Assembly (NCBI RefSeq): GCF_900167535.1
Contig: NZ_FUYE01000009.1
Coordinates: 1 to 64,000, forward strand
Direction of reading: 5' to 3'
Origin: Prosthecobacter debontii
GTDB lineage: Bacteria > Verrucomicrobiota > Verrucomicrobiia > Verrucomicrobiales > Verrucomicrobiaceae
DNA length: 64,000 nt
Notes under the pieces: model-generated
Told to the model about the DNA's origin: nothing
Databases searched by the model: none
Seen by the model: the letters and a program-made list of their open reading frames with translations, nothing else
In this document: positions 11,101 to 18,374 of the stretch, in pieces
Numbering within the stretch: the first letter of the stretch is position 1
Layout: the number at the start of each line of letters is the position of its first letter
Translations under genes and position numbers: made by a program

Positions 11101-12267
11101 ATGGACTTCATCGCCAAAAACATCGCCGAACTCTCGCCTTCCATGACCCTTGCCATCACCAGCCAGGCGAAGGCGCTGAAGAAACAGGGCGTGGATGTGC
11201 TCAGCTTTGGGGCGGGAGAGCCTGACTTTAACACCCCGGACCATATCACCGCGGCGGCTATCGAGGCGCTGAACACGGGCAAGACCCGTTACACGGAGAG
11301 CGCTGGCCTTATTGAGTTGCGCGAGGCGATCGCGGCTAAGCTGCTGGTGGATAACGGCATCCAGTATGACCCTGCCCAGATCAGTGTGAACTGCGGTGCC
11401 AAGCACTCCTGTTACAATGCAATCGCCGCCGTCGTGAATCCTGGTGATGAAGTCATCATCCCGGCTCCTTACTGGACCAGCTACCCTGAGATGGTGAAGC
11501 TGGTGGGCGGTATCCCGGTTATCGTCGAAACCAAACTGGAAAACGACTGGAAGATCACTCCTGAAGAATTCGAGGACGCCATGTCCCCGATGACCAAGAT
11601 GATCATCATCAACAGCCCAGGCAACCCAACCGGCTCTGTCTATTCTCGTGAGGAACTGAAGGCCATCGGTGAAATCGCTGCGGCTGAGGACATCCTCATC
11701 CTTTCCGACGAAATCTATGAGAAGCTGGTCTATGGCGAAGAGAAGCACGTCAGTATCGCCAGCATCAGCAAGGATATCTTCGACCACACCATCACCATCA
11801 ATGGTTTTTCCAAAGCCTATGCTATGACAGGCTGGCGCCTCGGCTACACTGCGGCTCCGAAGAAGATCGCTGACGCCATCGACACGATCCAGAGCCACAC
11901 CACCAGCAATCCCACCACCTTTGCCCAATATGGTGCCATCGCCGCTCTCCAGGGGGATCAACAGATCGTGGCTGACATGCGCGATGAGTTCGACGTGCGC
12001 CGCCAGTATATGCTGAGCCGCCTGCAGGCCATCAAAGGCCTCAAGGTCGTCGAGCCGAAGGGTGCTTTCTACTTCCTGGTCGGCATTGAGTCCTACGGCA
12101 TCAAGTCCATCAACTTCTGCGAGAAGCTGCTCAGCAAAGGTAAAGTGGCTGCCGTTCCTGGCGTCGCCTTCGGTTCGGAATACACCCTCCGCTTCAGCTA
12201 CGCCACTGGCCTTGATGTGATCAACGCTGGCATGGACCGCTTTGAAGAGTTTTGCGGTCAGCATTAA
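11101..12267 (+). CDS. aspC: Aspartate aminotransferase (class I/II, subgroup Ib)
   Basis: A 388-residue PLP-dependent aminotransferase interconverting aspartate/2-oxoglutarate and oxaloacetate/glutamate. The Schiff-base lysine is K238 in TINGFSKAYAMTGWRLGY. The NSPGNPTG block (residues 171-178) and the N-terminal SFGAGEPDFNTPDHI are diagnostic of the bacterial Ib subgroup. Length is normal for the family. The gene stands alone and is followed by a strong intrinsic terminator. Relatives in this subgroup can also use prephenate, so the exact specificity is open. Confidence 0.9.
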   Translation: MDFIAKNIAELSPSMTLAITSQAKALKKQGVDVLSFGAGEPDFNTPDHITAAAIEALNTGKTRYTESAGLIELREAIAAKLLVDNGIQYDPAQISVNCGAKHSCYNAIAAVVNPGDEVIIPAPYWTSYPEMVKLVGGIPVIVETKLENDWKITPEEFEDAMSPMTKMIIINSPGNPTGSVYSREELKAIGEIAAAEDILILSDEIYEKLVYGEEKHVSIASISKDIFDHTITINGFSKAYAMTGWRLGYTAAPKKIADAIDTIQSHTTSNPTTFAQYGAIAALQGDQQIVADMRDEFDVRRQYMLSRLQAIKGLKVVEPKGAFYFLVGIESYGIKSINFCEKLLSKGKVAAVPGVAFGSEYTLRFSYATGLDVINAGMDRFEEFCGQH

Positions 12268-12305
12268 TCCGAGGGCGTCAACTCACAGCACATCACCTTC
12301 TTGGA

Positions 12306-12332
12306 GGGCAGATCTTTGGATCTGCCCTTTTT
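12306..12332 (+). terminator. Intrinsic terminator of the aspartate aminotransferase gene
   Basis: A perfect 9-bp stem GGGCAGATC / GATCTGCCC with a TTTG loop is followed by five T residues, 39 bases after the stop codon. Confidence 0.9.
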
Positions 12333-13215
12333 CATGGAGAGTGCCTGCCCTTCGTCGAGGTGGATTCGCCAAGGATCACTGAACGGCGGAATCTGTTCAG
12401 TTTCAGGCAGTTTGAATGATTGGTCATACCTCTTCGGGCTTTTTGAAATCCAATTTGCAACTAAACATATTTTAATAACTAAATCACATTATAATGTGAC
12501 TAACTCGGATGCGTTTCACCTAGAGCTCACGAGCTTCTCAGAAATGTAAAAGCAAATCGAAATTAGCTTTATTATTAAAAGTAAATATCATATTAATGCG
12601 CTTAATGAAGCAGCAAGTGCGTCGCGTCGTTTCTGCATAAAATGTTTTGAGGCCGCCAACCTGACCGAAGGTTTGTAGATCTAGCCCTGGTGTAAGAGAA
12701 AGAGAAGGCGCCAGTAAATCGTCATCCGAGTTCTAGTTCTACGTTTACAGCTTAAATTCTCCCCTTCTTTGCGTTGAATTTACAGCAAAAAAGACTGTTA
12801 ACCCGCTTATCTCGGTCCTTTCCTAGAGCAACGGTGTTGGAACGACGAAATGGCAAAGCAGTCTTCGATTTCCCAATCAGGTTGGTTTGGATGGCAGCAT
12901 CTGAATGTAATAATTAAGTAATTATCGTGGTCATAAGAGCCTGGAAGCTGCCCGCTTCAAATTTAGTCTCCCAGGATAATATTTAGCATTAGATACAATC
13001 ATGCATTGATGAAATCGTAGGAAATTTATATTAGGTTAAGTTGCTGGCAGTTGCAAAATGTAATTGTATTGGGAAAAGATTAAATTTACTGTAAATATCA
13101 TTACTGGTTCTCACTGGTGCTGATGTGTGTCAGAGCTGGCGACTTCATTCGTGTTTCTCAATTAGCTGGGCCTCTTCAGGCGTTCGATTATAGTAAATAT
13201 AAAAACTATTACCTT
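12333..13215. other. Long AT-rich intergenic region upstream of btubA
   Basis: This ~880-base gap is clearly richer in A and T than the flanking coding DNA, mainly from about 12430 to 13120. No convincing gene is present. It contains several palindromes: TCACATTATAATGTGA (12484-12499), ATAATTA-AG-TAATTAT (12910-12925) and ATTTAC-T-GTAAAT (13084-13096). It must hold the promoter of the tubulin operon unless transcription starts further upstream, but no consensus -35/-10 pair stands out. Confidence 0.6.
12484..12499. promoter_or_regulatory. Perfect 16-bp palindrome, possible operator
   Basis: TCACATTATAATGTGA is its own reverse complement. It lies in the AT-rich gap about 715 bases before btubA and 150 bases after the upstream terminator. 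The symmetry is what a dimeric regulator would bind; there is no evidence of which one. Confidence 0.35.
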
Positions 13216-14709
13216 ATGAAAGTGAACAATACCCTTGTCGTTTCGGTCGGTCAGGCAGGAAACCAGATTGCTTCATCTTTCTGGAGAACGCTCTGCCTGG
13301 AGCACGGCATTGATCCTACAACAGCCCAGTGCAAATCGGGTGCTGCGCCTAAGGGAAACTGGAGTGCATTCTTCTCAAAATTGGGAGATGGAAGCTCTGC
13401 TAGCTATGTGCCACGTTCGGTCATGGTGGATCTGGAGCCGAGCGTGATTAATCAAATCAAGGCGACGACGGGCTCCTTGTTCAATCCAGCCAACCTAATC
13501 ACCCGCATGGAAGGTGCTGGCGGGAACTTCGCCGTGGGTTACATGGGGGCGGGCCGCGAGGTTCTGCCGGAAGCCATGGCCCGCCTGGACTATGAAATCA
13601 GCAAGTGTGACCATGTCGGCGGCATTATCGTGCTGCATGCCATCGGGGGTGGCTCAGGCTCGGGTTTTGGCTCTCTTCTGATCGAGGAGATCAAGGAAAA
13701 GTATCCAGAACATCCCATTCTGAGCTGCGCCATCCTGCCTTCACCGCAAGTGTCCTCTGTGGTGACGGAACCTTACAACACGGTTTTCGCCTTGAGCACT
13801 CTGCGTCGTTTCGCGGATGCGTGTCTGATTTTTGATAATGAAGCTCTTTTCAATGTGGCCTTCCGTCGCTGGGGCATTGAAAGCCCGTCTGTGGATGATC
13901 TCAATTTACTCATCACAGAAGCCTTGGCTGGCCTGACCGCACCGATGCGTTTCAGCGGCTTCCTGACGGTGGAGATCAGCCTGCGTGAATTACTCACCAA
14001 TCTCGTGCCTCAGCCGAGCTTGCACTTCTTGATGTGCACCTTCGCCCCGCTGACTCCTCCCCATCAGAGCAAGTTCGAAGAAATGGGCATTGAGGAGATG
14101 ATCGAGTCCATGTTCAGGAATGAGTCGATGTTTGCCGCGTGTTCTCCCATGGAAGGCCGCTTTTTGAGCACCGCTGTGCTCTATCGAGGGGTGATGGAAG
14201 ATAAACCGCAAGCAGATGCTGCACTGGCTTCCATTCGTGGGCGTCTCCCATTGACCTATTGGATTCCAACAGCTTTTAAAATTGGTTATGTTGAGCAACC
14301 TGGTATCACCCATCGTCGTAGCGTGGTGCTGGTGGCTAATAACACCGAGGTATCGCGAGTGTTTGAGCGCATCTGCTCGAACTTCGATAAGCTTTGGCAG
14401 CGGAAAGCCTTCGCCAATTGGTATCTGAATGAAGGCATGTCCGAAGAGCAAATCACAGCCATGCGTGCCTCGGCGCAGGATCTGATTCAGAGCTATCGAG
14501 TGGCGGAGGAAACCGGCGTCATGAACAGGGGACAGGAAATCCAGCGCAGGACCTCCACACCGGCATTGGCACCTGAGCCTGAGCCAACACCTCAACCCCA
14601 ATACACTCCAGCTCCAGTCTCACGCCCCATCCCAATGCAAGGCTACTATGAGGGGGCACGCAGCAGCAGTTCCACCCACCTGCGAACGTTGGTCGAGCGC
14701 CGCTACTAG
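13216..14709 (+). CDS. btubA: Bacterial tubulin BtubA
   Basis: A 497-residue tubulin-fold GTPase that co-assembles with BtubB into short tubulin-like filaments in the cytoplasm. The start is the ATG at 13216 (MKVNNTLVVSVGQAGNQ), matching the known BtubA N-terminus; a frame-extending ATG at 13117 is rejected. GTP-binding motifs are GQAGNQ (12-17) and the tubulin signature GGGSGSG (144-150). The VEISLRELLTNLVPQPSLHF segment (from ~252) is the T7-loop region that contacts the next subunit's nucleotide. After ~430 the protein departs from the tubulin body: a Pro/Glu/Gln-rich tail (PALAPEPEPTPQPQYTPAP), then a serine run and LRTLVERRY. It is somewhat longer than the P. dejongeii protein (473 residues, from memory). 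No Shine-Dalgarno is visible before the start. Confidence 0.97.
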   Translation: MKVNNTLVVSVGQAGNQIASSFWRTLCLEHGIDPTTAQCKSGAAPKGNWSAFFSKLGDGSSASYVPRSVMVDLEPSVINQIKATTGSLFNPANLITRMEGAGGNFAVGYMGAGREVLPEAMARLDYEISKCDHVGGIIVLHAIGGGSGSGFGSLLIEEIKEKYPEHPILSCAILPSPQVSSVVTEPYNTVFALSTLRRFADACLIFDNEALFNVAFRRWGIESPSVDDLNLLITEALAGLTAPMRFSGFLTVEISLRELLTNLVPQPSLHFLMCTFAPLTPPHQSKFEEMGIEEMIESMFRNESMFAACSPMEGRFLSTAVLYRGVMEDKPQADAALASIRGRLPLTYWIPTAFKIGYVEQPGITHRRSVVLVANNTEVSRVFERICSNFDKLWQRKAFANWYLNEGMSEEQITAMRASAQDLIQSYRVAEETGVMNRGQEIQRRTSTPALAPEPEPTPQPQYTPAPVSRPIPMQGYYEGARSSSSTHLRTLVERRY

Positions 14710-14759
14710 AGCGCTTGCATGACGCATTCATTCAACACTCAAGATCAAGAACTTTTCCC

Positions 14760-14764
14760 GGAGG
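14760..14764 (+). promoter_or_regulatory. Ribosome binding site deciding the GTG start of btubB
   Basis: GGAGG lies seven bases before GTG at 14772. It fixes the start at the codon that gives the known BtubB N-terminus (REILSIHVGQCGNQ), rather than an ATG at 14715. A strong site like this is not seen before btubA or bklc. Confidence 0.8.
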
Positions 14765-14771
14765 ACGAACA

Positions 14772-16052
14772 GTGAGAGAGATTTTAAGCATTCACGTGGG
14801 GCAATGCGGCAACCAGATCGCCGACAGCTTTTGGCGACTGGCCCTGAAAGAGCATGGCCTTACAGAAACCGGAACGCTGAAAGAGGGGGCCAATGCAGCG
14901 GCCAATAGCAATTTGGAAGTTTTCTTTCACCGCGTAAGAGAGGGAAAATACGTCCCTCGCGCCGTCTTGATCGATCTTGAACCTGGAGTGATTGGCAGGA
15001 TCGAGAGTGGGGACATGTCCAAGCTCTTCGATGAAAGCTGCATCGTTCGCAAAATCCCAGGTGCTGCTAACAACTGGGCGCGTGGCTACCATGCGGAAGG
15101 TAAGCGGGTGATCGATCAGATCATGAATGTGATCGACAGCGCGGTTGAAAAGACCAAGGGGCTTCAGGGATTCTTACTCACGCATTCCATCGGAGGAGGT
15201 TCCGGGTCAGGTCTCGGGTCACTGATCCTCGAAAGGCTGCGTCAGGCTTATCCGAAGAAGCGCATCTTTACCTTTTCGGTCGTGCCGTCGCCGCTGATCT
15301 CAGACTCTGCTGTGGAGCCTTACAACGCTATTCTCACCCTGAAGCGCCTGCTGGATCACGCGGATGGTTCGGTGCTGTTGGATAATGAGGCTCTGTTCCG
15401 CATCGCTAAGACGAAGCTGAATCGCAGCCCCACTTACATGGACCTGAACAACATCATCGCTTTGATTGTGAGTTCCGTCACGGCGTCGCTGCGGTTTCCG
15501 GGGAAGCTGAATACCGACCTGAGTGAATTCGTGACTAATTTGGTGCCATTTCCTGGCAATCATTTCCTGACGGCAAGCTTTGCGCCCATGCGCACTGCTG
15601 ATGACGAAAGCCAAGTGCGCATGAGCTTCCCTGAACTGGCCCGTGAGACCTTTGCGCAGGACAATTTTACGGCGGAGATTGATTGGCAAAACGGCGTTTA
15701 CCTCGCTGCCAGCGCCTTGTTCCGGGGCGAGGTGAAGGCCAAGGAGGTGGATGAGAACATGGCCACGATCCGCAAGGAGTTGAACTACGCCAGCTACATG
15801 CCGGCCTCAGGCGGTCTCAAACTAGGTTATGCCGAGACCGCTCCGGCGGGCTTTGCCTCCAGTGGACTGGCTTTGGTCAACCACACCGGCATCTCAGCCG
15901 TGTTTGAGCGCCTGATCGGGCAGTTCGATATCATGTTCGATAATCACGCCTACACCCATTGGTATGAGAATGCCGGTGTGTCTCGCGATCAAATGGCCGT
16001 CGCTCGAGACCAGATTGCCAACCTCGCTCTATCCTACCGGGATGCCAGCTAA
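14772..16052 (+). CDS. btubB: Bacterial tubulin BtubB
   Basis: A 426-residue tubulin-fold GTPase, the partner of BtubA, with the length and sequence of the known Prosthecobacter protein. It starts at GTG 14772. Motifs: GQCGNQ (10-15), as in eukaryotic beta-tubulin; GGGSGSG (141-147); and the VTNLVPFPGNHFLTASFAP block of the T7/H8 region. Unlike BtubA it has no C-terminal extension and ends IANLALSYRDAS. It is 62 bases downstream of btubA on the same strand, so the two are surely co-transcribed. Bacterial tubulins resemble eukaryotic tubulin more than FtsZ; an origin by horizontal transfer or from an ancient tubulin has been debated. Codon usage here looks like that of the flanking genes. Confidence 0.97.
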   Translation: MREILSIHVGQCGNQIADSFWRLALKEHGLTETGTLKEGANAAANSNLEVFFHRVREGKYVPRAVLIDLEPGVIGRIESGDMSKLFDESCIVRKIPGAANNWARGYHAEGKRVIDQIMNVIDSAVEKTKGLQGFLLTHSIGGGSGSGLGSLILERLRQAYPKKRIFTFSVVPSPLISDSAVEPYNAILTLKRLLDHADGSVLLDNEALFRIAKTKLNRSPTYMDLNNIIALIVSSVTASLRFPGKLNTDLSEFVTNLVPFPGNHFLTASFAPMRTADDESQVRMSFPELARETFAQDNFTAEIDWQNGVYLAASALFRGEVKAKEVDENMATIRKELNYASYMPASGGLKLGYAETAPAGFASSGLALVNHTGISAVFERLIGQFDIMFDNHAYTHWYENAGVSRDQMAVARDQIANLALSYRDAS

Positions 16053-16134
16053 CGCACGATACGGCTGAGCCTTCTTACCCCACCCTCCCACTCTCCTCTC
16101 TGTTATTCTTCAACCTTAACCTATCGCCCTCACC

Positions 16135-16914
16135 ATGCCTTACAGTGTCGATACCAAGTTGGATCGTCAGATTGAGATTGCTTCTCGCCATGTGGAAGAA
16201 GCACGGCGTGCCGTCAATCGGGACGCCAGTTTCATAGGTCAACTTGTGGAGCAAATCAGCGTCCTGGCGAGTCTTCGGCAAAAGGACGGTGACTTCCCCA
16301 AGGCAGAGTCCCTTTACCGCGAAGCGCTTTATAGCGCCTTAGAAGCACGGCCTCGAGATGCGGACTTGCTGATCGGCATTTATTCGCTGCTCGCTCACCT
16401 GTATGATCGTTGGGGGCGGATGCCAGAGTCTGCCGAGTTTTATCAAATGGCCTTGGATGCAGCGGAAAAAGCTGGTGTTTGCAACAGCAAGGTGGCCACC
16501 ATCAAGAACAACTTGGCCATGATTTACAAGCAGCAGCATGACTACGCTAAAGCAGAGCAATACTACCTGGAGGCACTCGACATCTTCGAAGCGACGGATG
16601 GCCGCTACAGCGCTAGTGTGGCCAGTGTGTTCAACAACCTCGGTGTTCTTTATTATTTGAACTTGGATGTCGAACACGCCATGCAGATGCACGAACAGGC
16701 GCTCGTGATTCGACAAAATCTCGGAGAAAGTCAGATGGATCCAGCGGATCTCTCTCAAACCTACATCAATCTCGGGGCGGCTTATAAAGCCACGGGAGAC
16801 TTTCAACAGGCGGAGGTGTGGGTGGAGCGCGCGAAAAAACTGCGTGCGCAAATGCACATGAGTCACCCCACGCCCCAGCGAGCCGCTTCCCTTTTGGTGG
16901 ATAAGCCGTTTTGA
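16135..16914 (+). CDS. bklc: Bacterial kinesin light chain-like TPR protein (BtubC/Bklc)
   Basis: A 259-residue protein built from tetratricopeptide repeats of the kinesin-light-chain type. Clear repeats are FPKAESLYREALYSALEARP, MPESAEFYQMALDAAEKAG, YAKAEQYYLEALDIFEAT, VEHAMQMHEQALVIRQNLG and FQQAEVWVERAKKLRAQM, with NNLAMIYKQQHDY and FNNLGVLYYLN helices between them. It has no membrane segment or signal peptide. It sits 82 bases downstream of btubB, the position known from Prosthecobacter btub operons. From earlier work on this genus (from memory), the product binds BtubAB filaments and possibly membranes. It is not a motor and no kinesin heavy chain is present here. Confidence 0.93.
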   Translation: MPYSVDTKLDRQIEIASRHVEEARRAVNRDASFIGQLVEQISVLASLRQKDGDFPKAESLYREALYSALEARPRDADLLIGIYSLLAHLYDRWGRMPESAEFYQMALDAAEKAGVCNSKVATIKNNLAMIYKQQHDYAKAEQYYLEALDIFEATDGRYSASVASVFNNLGVLYYLNLDVEHAMQMHEQALVIRQNLGESQMDPADLSQTYINLGAAYKATGDFQQAEVWVERAKKLRAQMHMSHPTPQRAASLLVDKPF

Positions 16915-16980: not shown

Positions 16981-17390
16981 ATGTAAGACCCTTGTGATTC
17001 TGCGTATCTATCTTAATTAGACGGTGGATCTTATAAAAGTGGGCATGAAAATCTCGTCTCGAATTTTCCTTTTCTTTTAGTCTCGGTGTCGTTGTGCTGG
17101 TCGTTTGGTTAGCCCTGCAAACAGAAGGAAAAACGGTCGGCACTCGACATTAGAGAGATGGGCTCTCAAAAACGTTCCGAGTCGAAGAAAACCCTCATCA
17201 AAAAGGAACGGATACCCCAACCCCCATTCTTTCAGGTTTGGTGGAGCTACAGGCTCCGTAATGGCAACGCTTCGTGCCGGTTTTTTCCTTTGCAAGCCTG
17301 CCGTGGCGCTCCTATAAACTTCCCCCTCACGTCCTGGGAGGCGCTGTCGTATTCCAGAACTCCGTTTTGAACCCCCACTCCTGCACTGCC
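16981..17390. other. Intergenic region between bklc and cysK
   Basis: About 410 bases with no convincing gene on either strand. The first part is AT-rich. The last ~130 bases before cysK contain two consecutive small hairpins (see the attenuator-like entry), suggesting a cysK leader transcript. Confidence 0.5.
17242..17286 (+). promoter_or_regulatory. Attenuator-like hairpins upstream of cysK
   Basis: A GGAGC-TACAG-GCTCC hairpin (17242-17256) is followed by a GGC(A)ACG-CTT-CGTGCC stem (17263-17278) and then GG plus six T residues (17279-17286), ending about 104 bases before the cysK start. The second looks like an intrinsic terminator pointing toward cysK. It could be a leader attenuator, or the terminator of a transcript from upstream. 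No known riboswitch consensus was recognised. Confidence 0.4.
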
Positions 17391-18374
17391 ATGGGAAACA
17401 TCTACAACAACATCGTCGAAACCGTCGGTAAGACTCCGCTGGTGAAACTGAACAAGGTCACCGAAGGACTCGACGCCACCATCGCGCTGAAGTGCGAGTT
17501 CTTCAATCCCCTCGGGAGCGTGAAGGACCGTATTGGCATGGCCATGATCGAAGATGCAGAGGCTCGCGGCATCCTGAATAAGGACACCGTCATTGTCGAG
17601 CCGACCAGTGGTAACACCGGCATCGCGCTCGCCTTCGTGGCGGCTGCCAAAGGTTACAAGCTCGTCCTGACCATGCCTGAGACCATGAGCTTGGAGCGCC
17701 GGACCCTGCTGGCCCTGCTCGGCGCAGATCTGGTGCTGACCCCTGGCCCTCAGGGCATGAAGGGCGCCATCGCCAAAGCGGAGGAGATCCTCAAGGAGAC
17801 TCCGAATGCCTGGATGCCCCAGCAGTTTGAAAACCCCGCCAACCCGGCTATCCACATGAAGACCACCGCCGAGGAAATCTGGGCGGATACGGATGGCCAA
17901 GTGGACATCTTCGTGGCCGCTGTCGGCACGGGCGGCACCCTCACCGGCACCTGCGAGGTGATCAAACCCCGCAAGCCAAGCTTCCAGGCCATCGCCGTGG
18001 AGCCTGAGGCCAGCCCGGTCATCAACCAGACATTGGCCGGTGAACCTGTGCAGCCTGGTCCGCACAAGATTCAGGGCACAGGCGCCGGTTTCGTGCCAAA
18101 GAACCTTCACCTCAAGGACAGCGCCGGTAACCCGCAGATCATCGAGTGCATCAAGATCAGCAATGACGACGCTTTCGCCATGGCTCGCCGCCTAGCTAAA
18201 GAAGAAGGCATCCTGGTCGGCATCAGCACCGGTGCCAACGTGTTGGCCGCCATCCGTGTGGCTCAGCGTCCTGAAAACAAGGGTAAGCTGATCGTCACCG
18301 TGGCTTGCTCCACCGGTGAGCGTTACCTCTCCACCGCCCTCGCCGATGAGGCGCGTGCAAAAGTGGGAGCCTAA
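17391..18374 (+). CDS. cysK: Cysteine synthase A (O-acetylserine sulfhydrylase)
   Basis: A 327-residue PLP enzyme making L-cysteine from O-acetylserine and sulfide. The Schiff-base lysine is K45 in [13 protein letters not shown]. The substrate-binding TSGNTG is at residues 72-77. The phosphate-binding glycine loop lies in [13 protein letters not shown], and the C-terminal GISTGAN and [14 protein letters not shown] blocks are typical. The length matches CysK rather than the longer CysM or CBS enzymes. The start ATG at 17391 is chosen over an ATG at 17274 because homology begins at [15 protein letters not shown]. The next gene begins 54 bases downstream on the same strand. Confidence 0.95.

Follow-up and report, generated by a model that had tools for sequence, protein, structure and literature searches.

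The window analysed here is a stretch of 64,000 nucleotides from Prosthecobacter debontii, in which an initial annotation, made from the letters alone, had placed a complete bacterial tubulin operon with the genes btubA, btubB and bklc in the known order. Judged by its sequence, the region 13216-16914 is confirmed as a genuine and complete bacterial microtubule operon, of a type already known from Prosthecobacter. It consists of btubA (13216..14709, plus strand; 497 amino acids, ATG start), btubB (14772..16052, plus strand; 426 amino acids, GTG start) and bklc, the gene for a bacterial kinesin light chain (16135..16914, plus strand; a TPR protein of 259 amino acids, read from ATG to stop). The three reading frames are intact and free of internal stops, and the gaps between them are 62 nucleotides (nt; btubA-btubB) and 82 nt (btubB-bklc). 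The signature motifs GQAGNQ, GQCGNQ and GGGSGSG, on which the initial annotation had leaned, are all present in the two tubulins.

BtubA contains the tubulin GTPase and C-terminal domains (PF00091 and PF03953, both above the Pfam cut-off), followed by a low-complexity, proline-rich tail. In phmmer searches of the Protein Data Bank, the best solved match of BtubA is Prosthecobacter BtubA 2bto (E 5e-251, residues 1-446) and that of BtubB is BtubB 7quq/2btq (E 5e-259, all 426 residues). The third gene had been called a KLC-type TPR gene, and its product indeed has Bklc 5o01 as the best solved match (E 3e-101), with KLC1 reaching only E 1e-21. The Asgard AtubA/B and the eukaryotic alpha/beta tubulins resemble BtubA/B in the tubulin fold and in being a heterodimer-type pair, but they score about 400 bits or less against about 840-860 for the BtubA/B matches. 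We know of no Bklc gene adjoining an Asgard or eukaryotic tubulin gene. An AlphaFold model of the BtubA from the window was useless (pLDDT 43, shallow alignment).

In P. dejongeii and P. vanneervenii, the tubulins assemble as heterodimers into tubes of 4-5 protofilaments, and Bklc binds to these filaments and to lipid vesicles (PMC3232192, PMC10058229, PMC5372463). By homology to what has been shown in these two species, BtubA and BtubB from the window would pair as heterodimers and, with GTP, polymerise to a thin bacterial microtubule, while Bklc would bind the polymer and tether it to the membrane. The P. dejongeii operon (2bto/2btq/5o09/7quq) is like the operon in the window in gene order, domains and GTPase motifs, aligns with it over the full length and shares 90% identity in BtubB. 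It is unlike it in the BtubA core (82%), in two BtubA residues (D283H/R284Q in the window), in the BtubA tail, which is proline-rich and longer in the window, and in possessing an inverted repeat upstream of btubA and a small gene that overlaps the bklc stop.

A second operon and the divergence of the first

The genome to which the window belongs (G000; 6.29 Mb, 56 contigs, 99.6% complete, with the window on contig C9) does contain a second btub pair, which answers a check proposed in the initial annotation. A complete btubA-btubB-bklc operon (copy 2) lies at G000:C9:234034-237591 (= L006:10035-13592), on the same contig as the operon in the window (copy 1) and 220 kb away from it. The two copies are 78.5% identical in BtubA (81.3% in the core), 88.3% in BtubB and 68.2% in Bklc. 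P. debontii has been described with an 'operon 1' and an 'operon 2' (PMC3232192), and among the 68 genomes of the family no other has two complete btub pairs. Copy 2 adjoins a pyruvate-phosphate-dikinase-like gene, and so does the operon of another genome (G038/L009). Reportedly, btub operons were described by gene walking by Pilhofer in 2007.

The P. dejongeii reference used for comparison is genome G016, in which BtubA matches 2bto at every one of the 446 residues compared and BtubB is 99.8% identical to 7quq; Bklc 5o01 comes from the P. vanneervenii-type genome G059 (99.6%). Measured against P. dejongeii, copy 1 is 82.0% identical in BtubA (core) and 89.9-90.1% in BtubB, in agreement with the initial annotation, in which BtubA stands clearly apart and BtubB is closer. 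The interpretation offered there is partly supported. Identity, gene order and completeness hold, but a difference in rate between the two subunits was right for copy 1 only and fails family-wide: the A/B path-length ratio is 1.44 in pairs with copy 1 but 0.98 in the 532 family pairs without it. BtubA and BtubB are equally fast across the family, and the acceleration of BtubA is specific to copy 1. The existence of a second operon accounts for the divergence of copy 1 better than a subunit-specific rate does.

In relative-rate tests with L081 as the outgroup, the unique changes of copy 1 and copy 2 number 57:13 in BtubA (p 1e-7), 34:9 in BtubB (p 2e-4) and 39:14 in Bklc (p 8e-4). Of 281 alignment columns that show no variation among 37 other BtubA sequences, copy-1 BtubA is changed at 19, where any other row is changed at 8 at most; copy-1 BtubB is changed at only one of 254 family-invariant columns. 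The dN/dS of BtubA and BtubB, estimated with saturated dS, is about 0.02-0.08. Copy 1 is faster than copy 2 under continued purifying selection, with BtubA the most changed against the family background and Bklc also fast. Two of the 19 BtubA departures, D283H and R284Q, fall in the M-loop, in the stretch PHQSK (residues 282-286; 14059..14073, plus strand). In P. dejongeii BtubA, lateral contacts are lost when R284G, K286D and F287G are combined (PMC10058229).

The C-terminal tail of copy-1 BtubA (14518..14706, plus strand) is made up of a variable linker and an end motif, (S/H)LR(D/T)LV(D/E)RR. Essentially every complete BtubA has this arrangement, in which a low-complexity linker, variable in both length and sequence, precedes a conserved (M/V)SLRDLVDRR; in copy 1 the linker, at about residues 443-487, is rich in proline and longer than those of its relatives, and the terminus reads HLRTLVERRY. 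A similarity of the end motif to the FtsZ C-terminal peptide was considered and rejected, as FtsZ here ends DVPTWMRLKRKLKR and only the architecture of a linker plus a conserved end is alike. The tail of BtubA is not discussed in the literature searched, a search that did not extend to the 2017 mini-microtubule paper. The C-terminus of Bklc is likewise conserved, with an ASLL(V/I)DK stretch.

Chromosomal site, control elements and readings of copy 1

Copy 1 is flanked on the left by an aminotransferase gene (11101..12267, plus strand) and on the right by the cysteine synthase gene cysK (17388..18374, plus strand). These two genes abut in four relatives (G017, G023, G059 and G045), where the empty site measures about 47-66 bp as against 5.1 kb in the window, and in G013 and P. 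dejongeii the gap is occupied by one open reading frame of roughly 2855 codons (L090:2911-11475; L091:2883-11453). Since a btub operon, a single large frame or nothing may lie between them, the site is variable. A non-coding stretch of 948 nt (12268..13215; GC 0.41) precedes btubA of copy 1 and has no match among the upstream regions of other btub operons. Close to its left end a hairpin, GGGCAGATC-TTTG-GATCTGCCC followed by TTTTT (12306..12332, plus strand), was read from the sequence and not reported by a consensus scan; it is a probable terminator of the aminotransferase gene. A promoter scan gave nothing above chance.

The two copies share the same three genes and differ in what surrounds them. 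An inverted repeat, GAGAA-N15-TTCTC, is located 61-69 nt before btubA in copy 2 and in 11 other loci from the same part of the tree (L006, which is copy 2, L008, L009, L010, L012, L013, L040, L041, L043, L074, L077 and L078, with L038 as a further case; some arms have one or two changed bases). It is a candidate operator, and it was not found upstream of copy-1 btubA. Similarly, a small gene of 75-87 amino acids with no Pfam family has its start within the stop codon of bklc (as GTGA or ATGA) in copy 2 (L006:13589-13825) and in relatives and is absent from copy 1. A role for it as a new btub-specific component was rejected: it occurs as a single copy in 67 of the 68 family genomes, and is thus a gene of the family at large that became attached to the operon within one section of that family.

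What, then, is copy 1? With a probability of roughly 85%, we take it to be a complete operon, one of two, that is the faster-evolving paralogue, presumably under separate control and giving a filament that would have different lateral contacts or partners. Copy 1 would have been inserted between the aminotransferase gene and cysK. The upstream inverted repeat and the downstream small gene seen in copy 2 would have disappeared from it or never been part of it. Copy 1 would be under control separate from that of copy 2, and its filament would have altered lateral contacts and an altered adaptor. Several observations weigh against this interpretation. With the most distant outgroup, L042, the excess of changes in copy 1 is not significant (BtubA 24:15, p 0.2; BtubB 8:3; Bklc 12:8). 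Among the three residues tested for lateral contacts in P. dejongeii, only R284 differs in copy-1 BtubA (Q), K286 and F287 being unchanged. The substitutions in this BtubA are mostly conservative, so that relaxed constraint after duplication fits as well as specialisation. Finally, an approximately unbiased (AU) test with the two copies as one clade gives p 0.13, and the trees fit more than one duplication history.

Relaxed selection could go as far as making copy 1 a redundant duplicate that is translated, has no function of its own and drifts towards loss. All three of its genes are accelerated, the upstream inverted repeat is missing, and tubulins have been lost elsewhere in the family (G042 keeps btubB remnants; G048 has neither btubAB nor the kinase-like gene c0 described below). 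This account seems unlikely, however, given that the three frames are intact, dN/dS is low, BtubB keeps 253 of the 254 invariant columns, and the GTPase motifs and the BtubA end motif are retained. A history in which copy 1 was transferred from a related species, not duplicated inside the lineage, is about as doubtful. Copy 1 groups with G046 and not with copy 2 in the BtubB tree (93/100) and the concatenated tree (89.5/98), and its chromosomal site and flanks are unlike those of copy 2; but the concatenated support drops to 82/72 in a reduced tree, the AU test does not reject both copies together, the BtubA tree places copy 1 elsewhere, and a long branch is involved. A miscall of FtsZ or phage TubZ relatives as tubulins, the case that the initial annotation had itself set against its call, is already refuted: the genes share the GTPase family PF00091 with such relatives, but the top matches are BtubA/B crystal structures by hundreds of bits, ftsZ is a separate gene (G000:C1:45894), and the NCBIfam ftsZ model gives copy-1 BtubB 30 bits where its cut-off is 295, so the tubulin call stands.

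A kinase-like gene upstream of btubA and Bklc without tubulin

Copy 1 was compared with the loci of 40 relatives. In 24 btub loci, from early-branching genera and the largest clade, a kinase-like gene (c0) lies directly upstream of btubA on the same strand (L031:6243-8369, L036:6208-8394, L037:365-2665 and 21 further loci), at a distance of 25-345 nt in the 19 loci measured. The P. vanneervenii-type operon of G059 has btubA-btubB-bklc like copy 1, but there c0 precedes btubA by 287 nt in the same orientation, whereas the window's own genome has its c0 elsewhere, at G000:C1:34488-36584 (L122:10489). The gene has been relocated away from btub in the lineage of the window. Full-length c0 and btub tend to occur together: over 47 high-quality genomes the counts are 29/2 against 3/13 (Fisher p 3.5e-7, uncorrected for relatedness). 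There is no mention of c0 in the literature searched, with the 2007 gene-walking paper outside that search.

The c0 protein has roughly 710-870 amino acids and two halves that are kinase-like but degenerate; a single transmembrane helix is predicted, and an IRRAIVPT-like motif is conserved at the C-terminus. Its Pfam Pkinase match is weak (E 8e-11), and Foldseek matches a low-confidence AlphaFold model (pLDDT 58) to Ser/Thr kinases (E 4e-8). In domain 1, D(F/Y)G is kept and HRD-N is missing, and domain 2 keeps D-L-HPSN and lacks DFG; the HRD loop and DFG expected together in one domain of an active protein kinase were found in neither. As one domain is without the catalytic loop and the other without DFG, the product is probably a membrane-anchored tandem pseudokinase. 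The BtubA end motif is kept in G018, which has no c0, so Bklc or the polymer itself would be a likelier partner of this motif than the kinase-like protein.

Bklc has been kept without the tubulins in three lineages (g11, G048 and G042), in one of them as a c0-bklc pair. In the tubulin-less genus g11, c0 is directly followed by a gene for a Bklc relative of 36-40% identity in three genomes (L129:8793-11673 in G067, L152:1506-4389 in G065 and L153:1857-4730 in G064), and dN/dS within the genus is 0.07-0.14. The other two cases are an intact bklc at L154:6420-7190 in G048, which is without c0 and btubAB, and one at L083:7400-8700 in G042, with btubB remnants beside it. The c0-bklc pair of g11 was considered as an ancestral state preceding the tubulins, but this is not favoured: the Bklc tree nests g11 within the Bklc clade, with the tubulin-bearing L042 at the base, and tubulin loss is therefore more likely, although long branches make that unsure. 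For the retention of bklc over long times g11 is the stronger case, since the losses in G048 and G042 are recent and reveal little about it. We put forward, tentatively and as somewhat less than an even chance, the wider proposal that c0 is an unrecognised fourth part of the system, that Bklc (with the c0 product in one genus) also works without tubulin, and that the filament made by copy 1 is regulated separately and altered in its lateral contacts.

Distribution of bacterial tubulins and its bearing on the system

A 2023 paper still described bacterial tubulins as limited to Prosthecobacter species (PMC9871819), and the initial annotation had confined them to very few genera. This does not hold for current genomes: BtubB has matches in 43 of the 68 genomes of the family (31 of the 47 high-quality ones), spread over 7 of its 11 genera, the match in G042 being a decayed remnant only. 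Among 388 genomes sampled evenly across the phylum, 4 match BtubB, and all 4 belong to this family. A very divergent btub operon is present in a verrucomicrobial metagenome-assembled genome (L042:8375-11860; BtubA ~60%, BtubB ~63% and Bklc 32% identical), where a 100-N gap hides the BtubA tail and the BtubB N-terminus. An apparent BtubA-BtubB fusion in it was rejected, as the frame crosses this scaffold gap.

Bacterial microtubules are a model for microtubule origins, and the spread over at least seven genera, together with a very divergent relative, provides more material for dating when these tubulins arose. The c0 gene and the lineages that have bklc without tubulin are new handles on the work of the system at the membrane, and they weaken the idea that Bklc is a microtubule adaptor only. 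With two diverged operons in one species, P. debontii makes it testable whether one cell runs two insulated tubulin systems.

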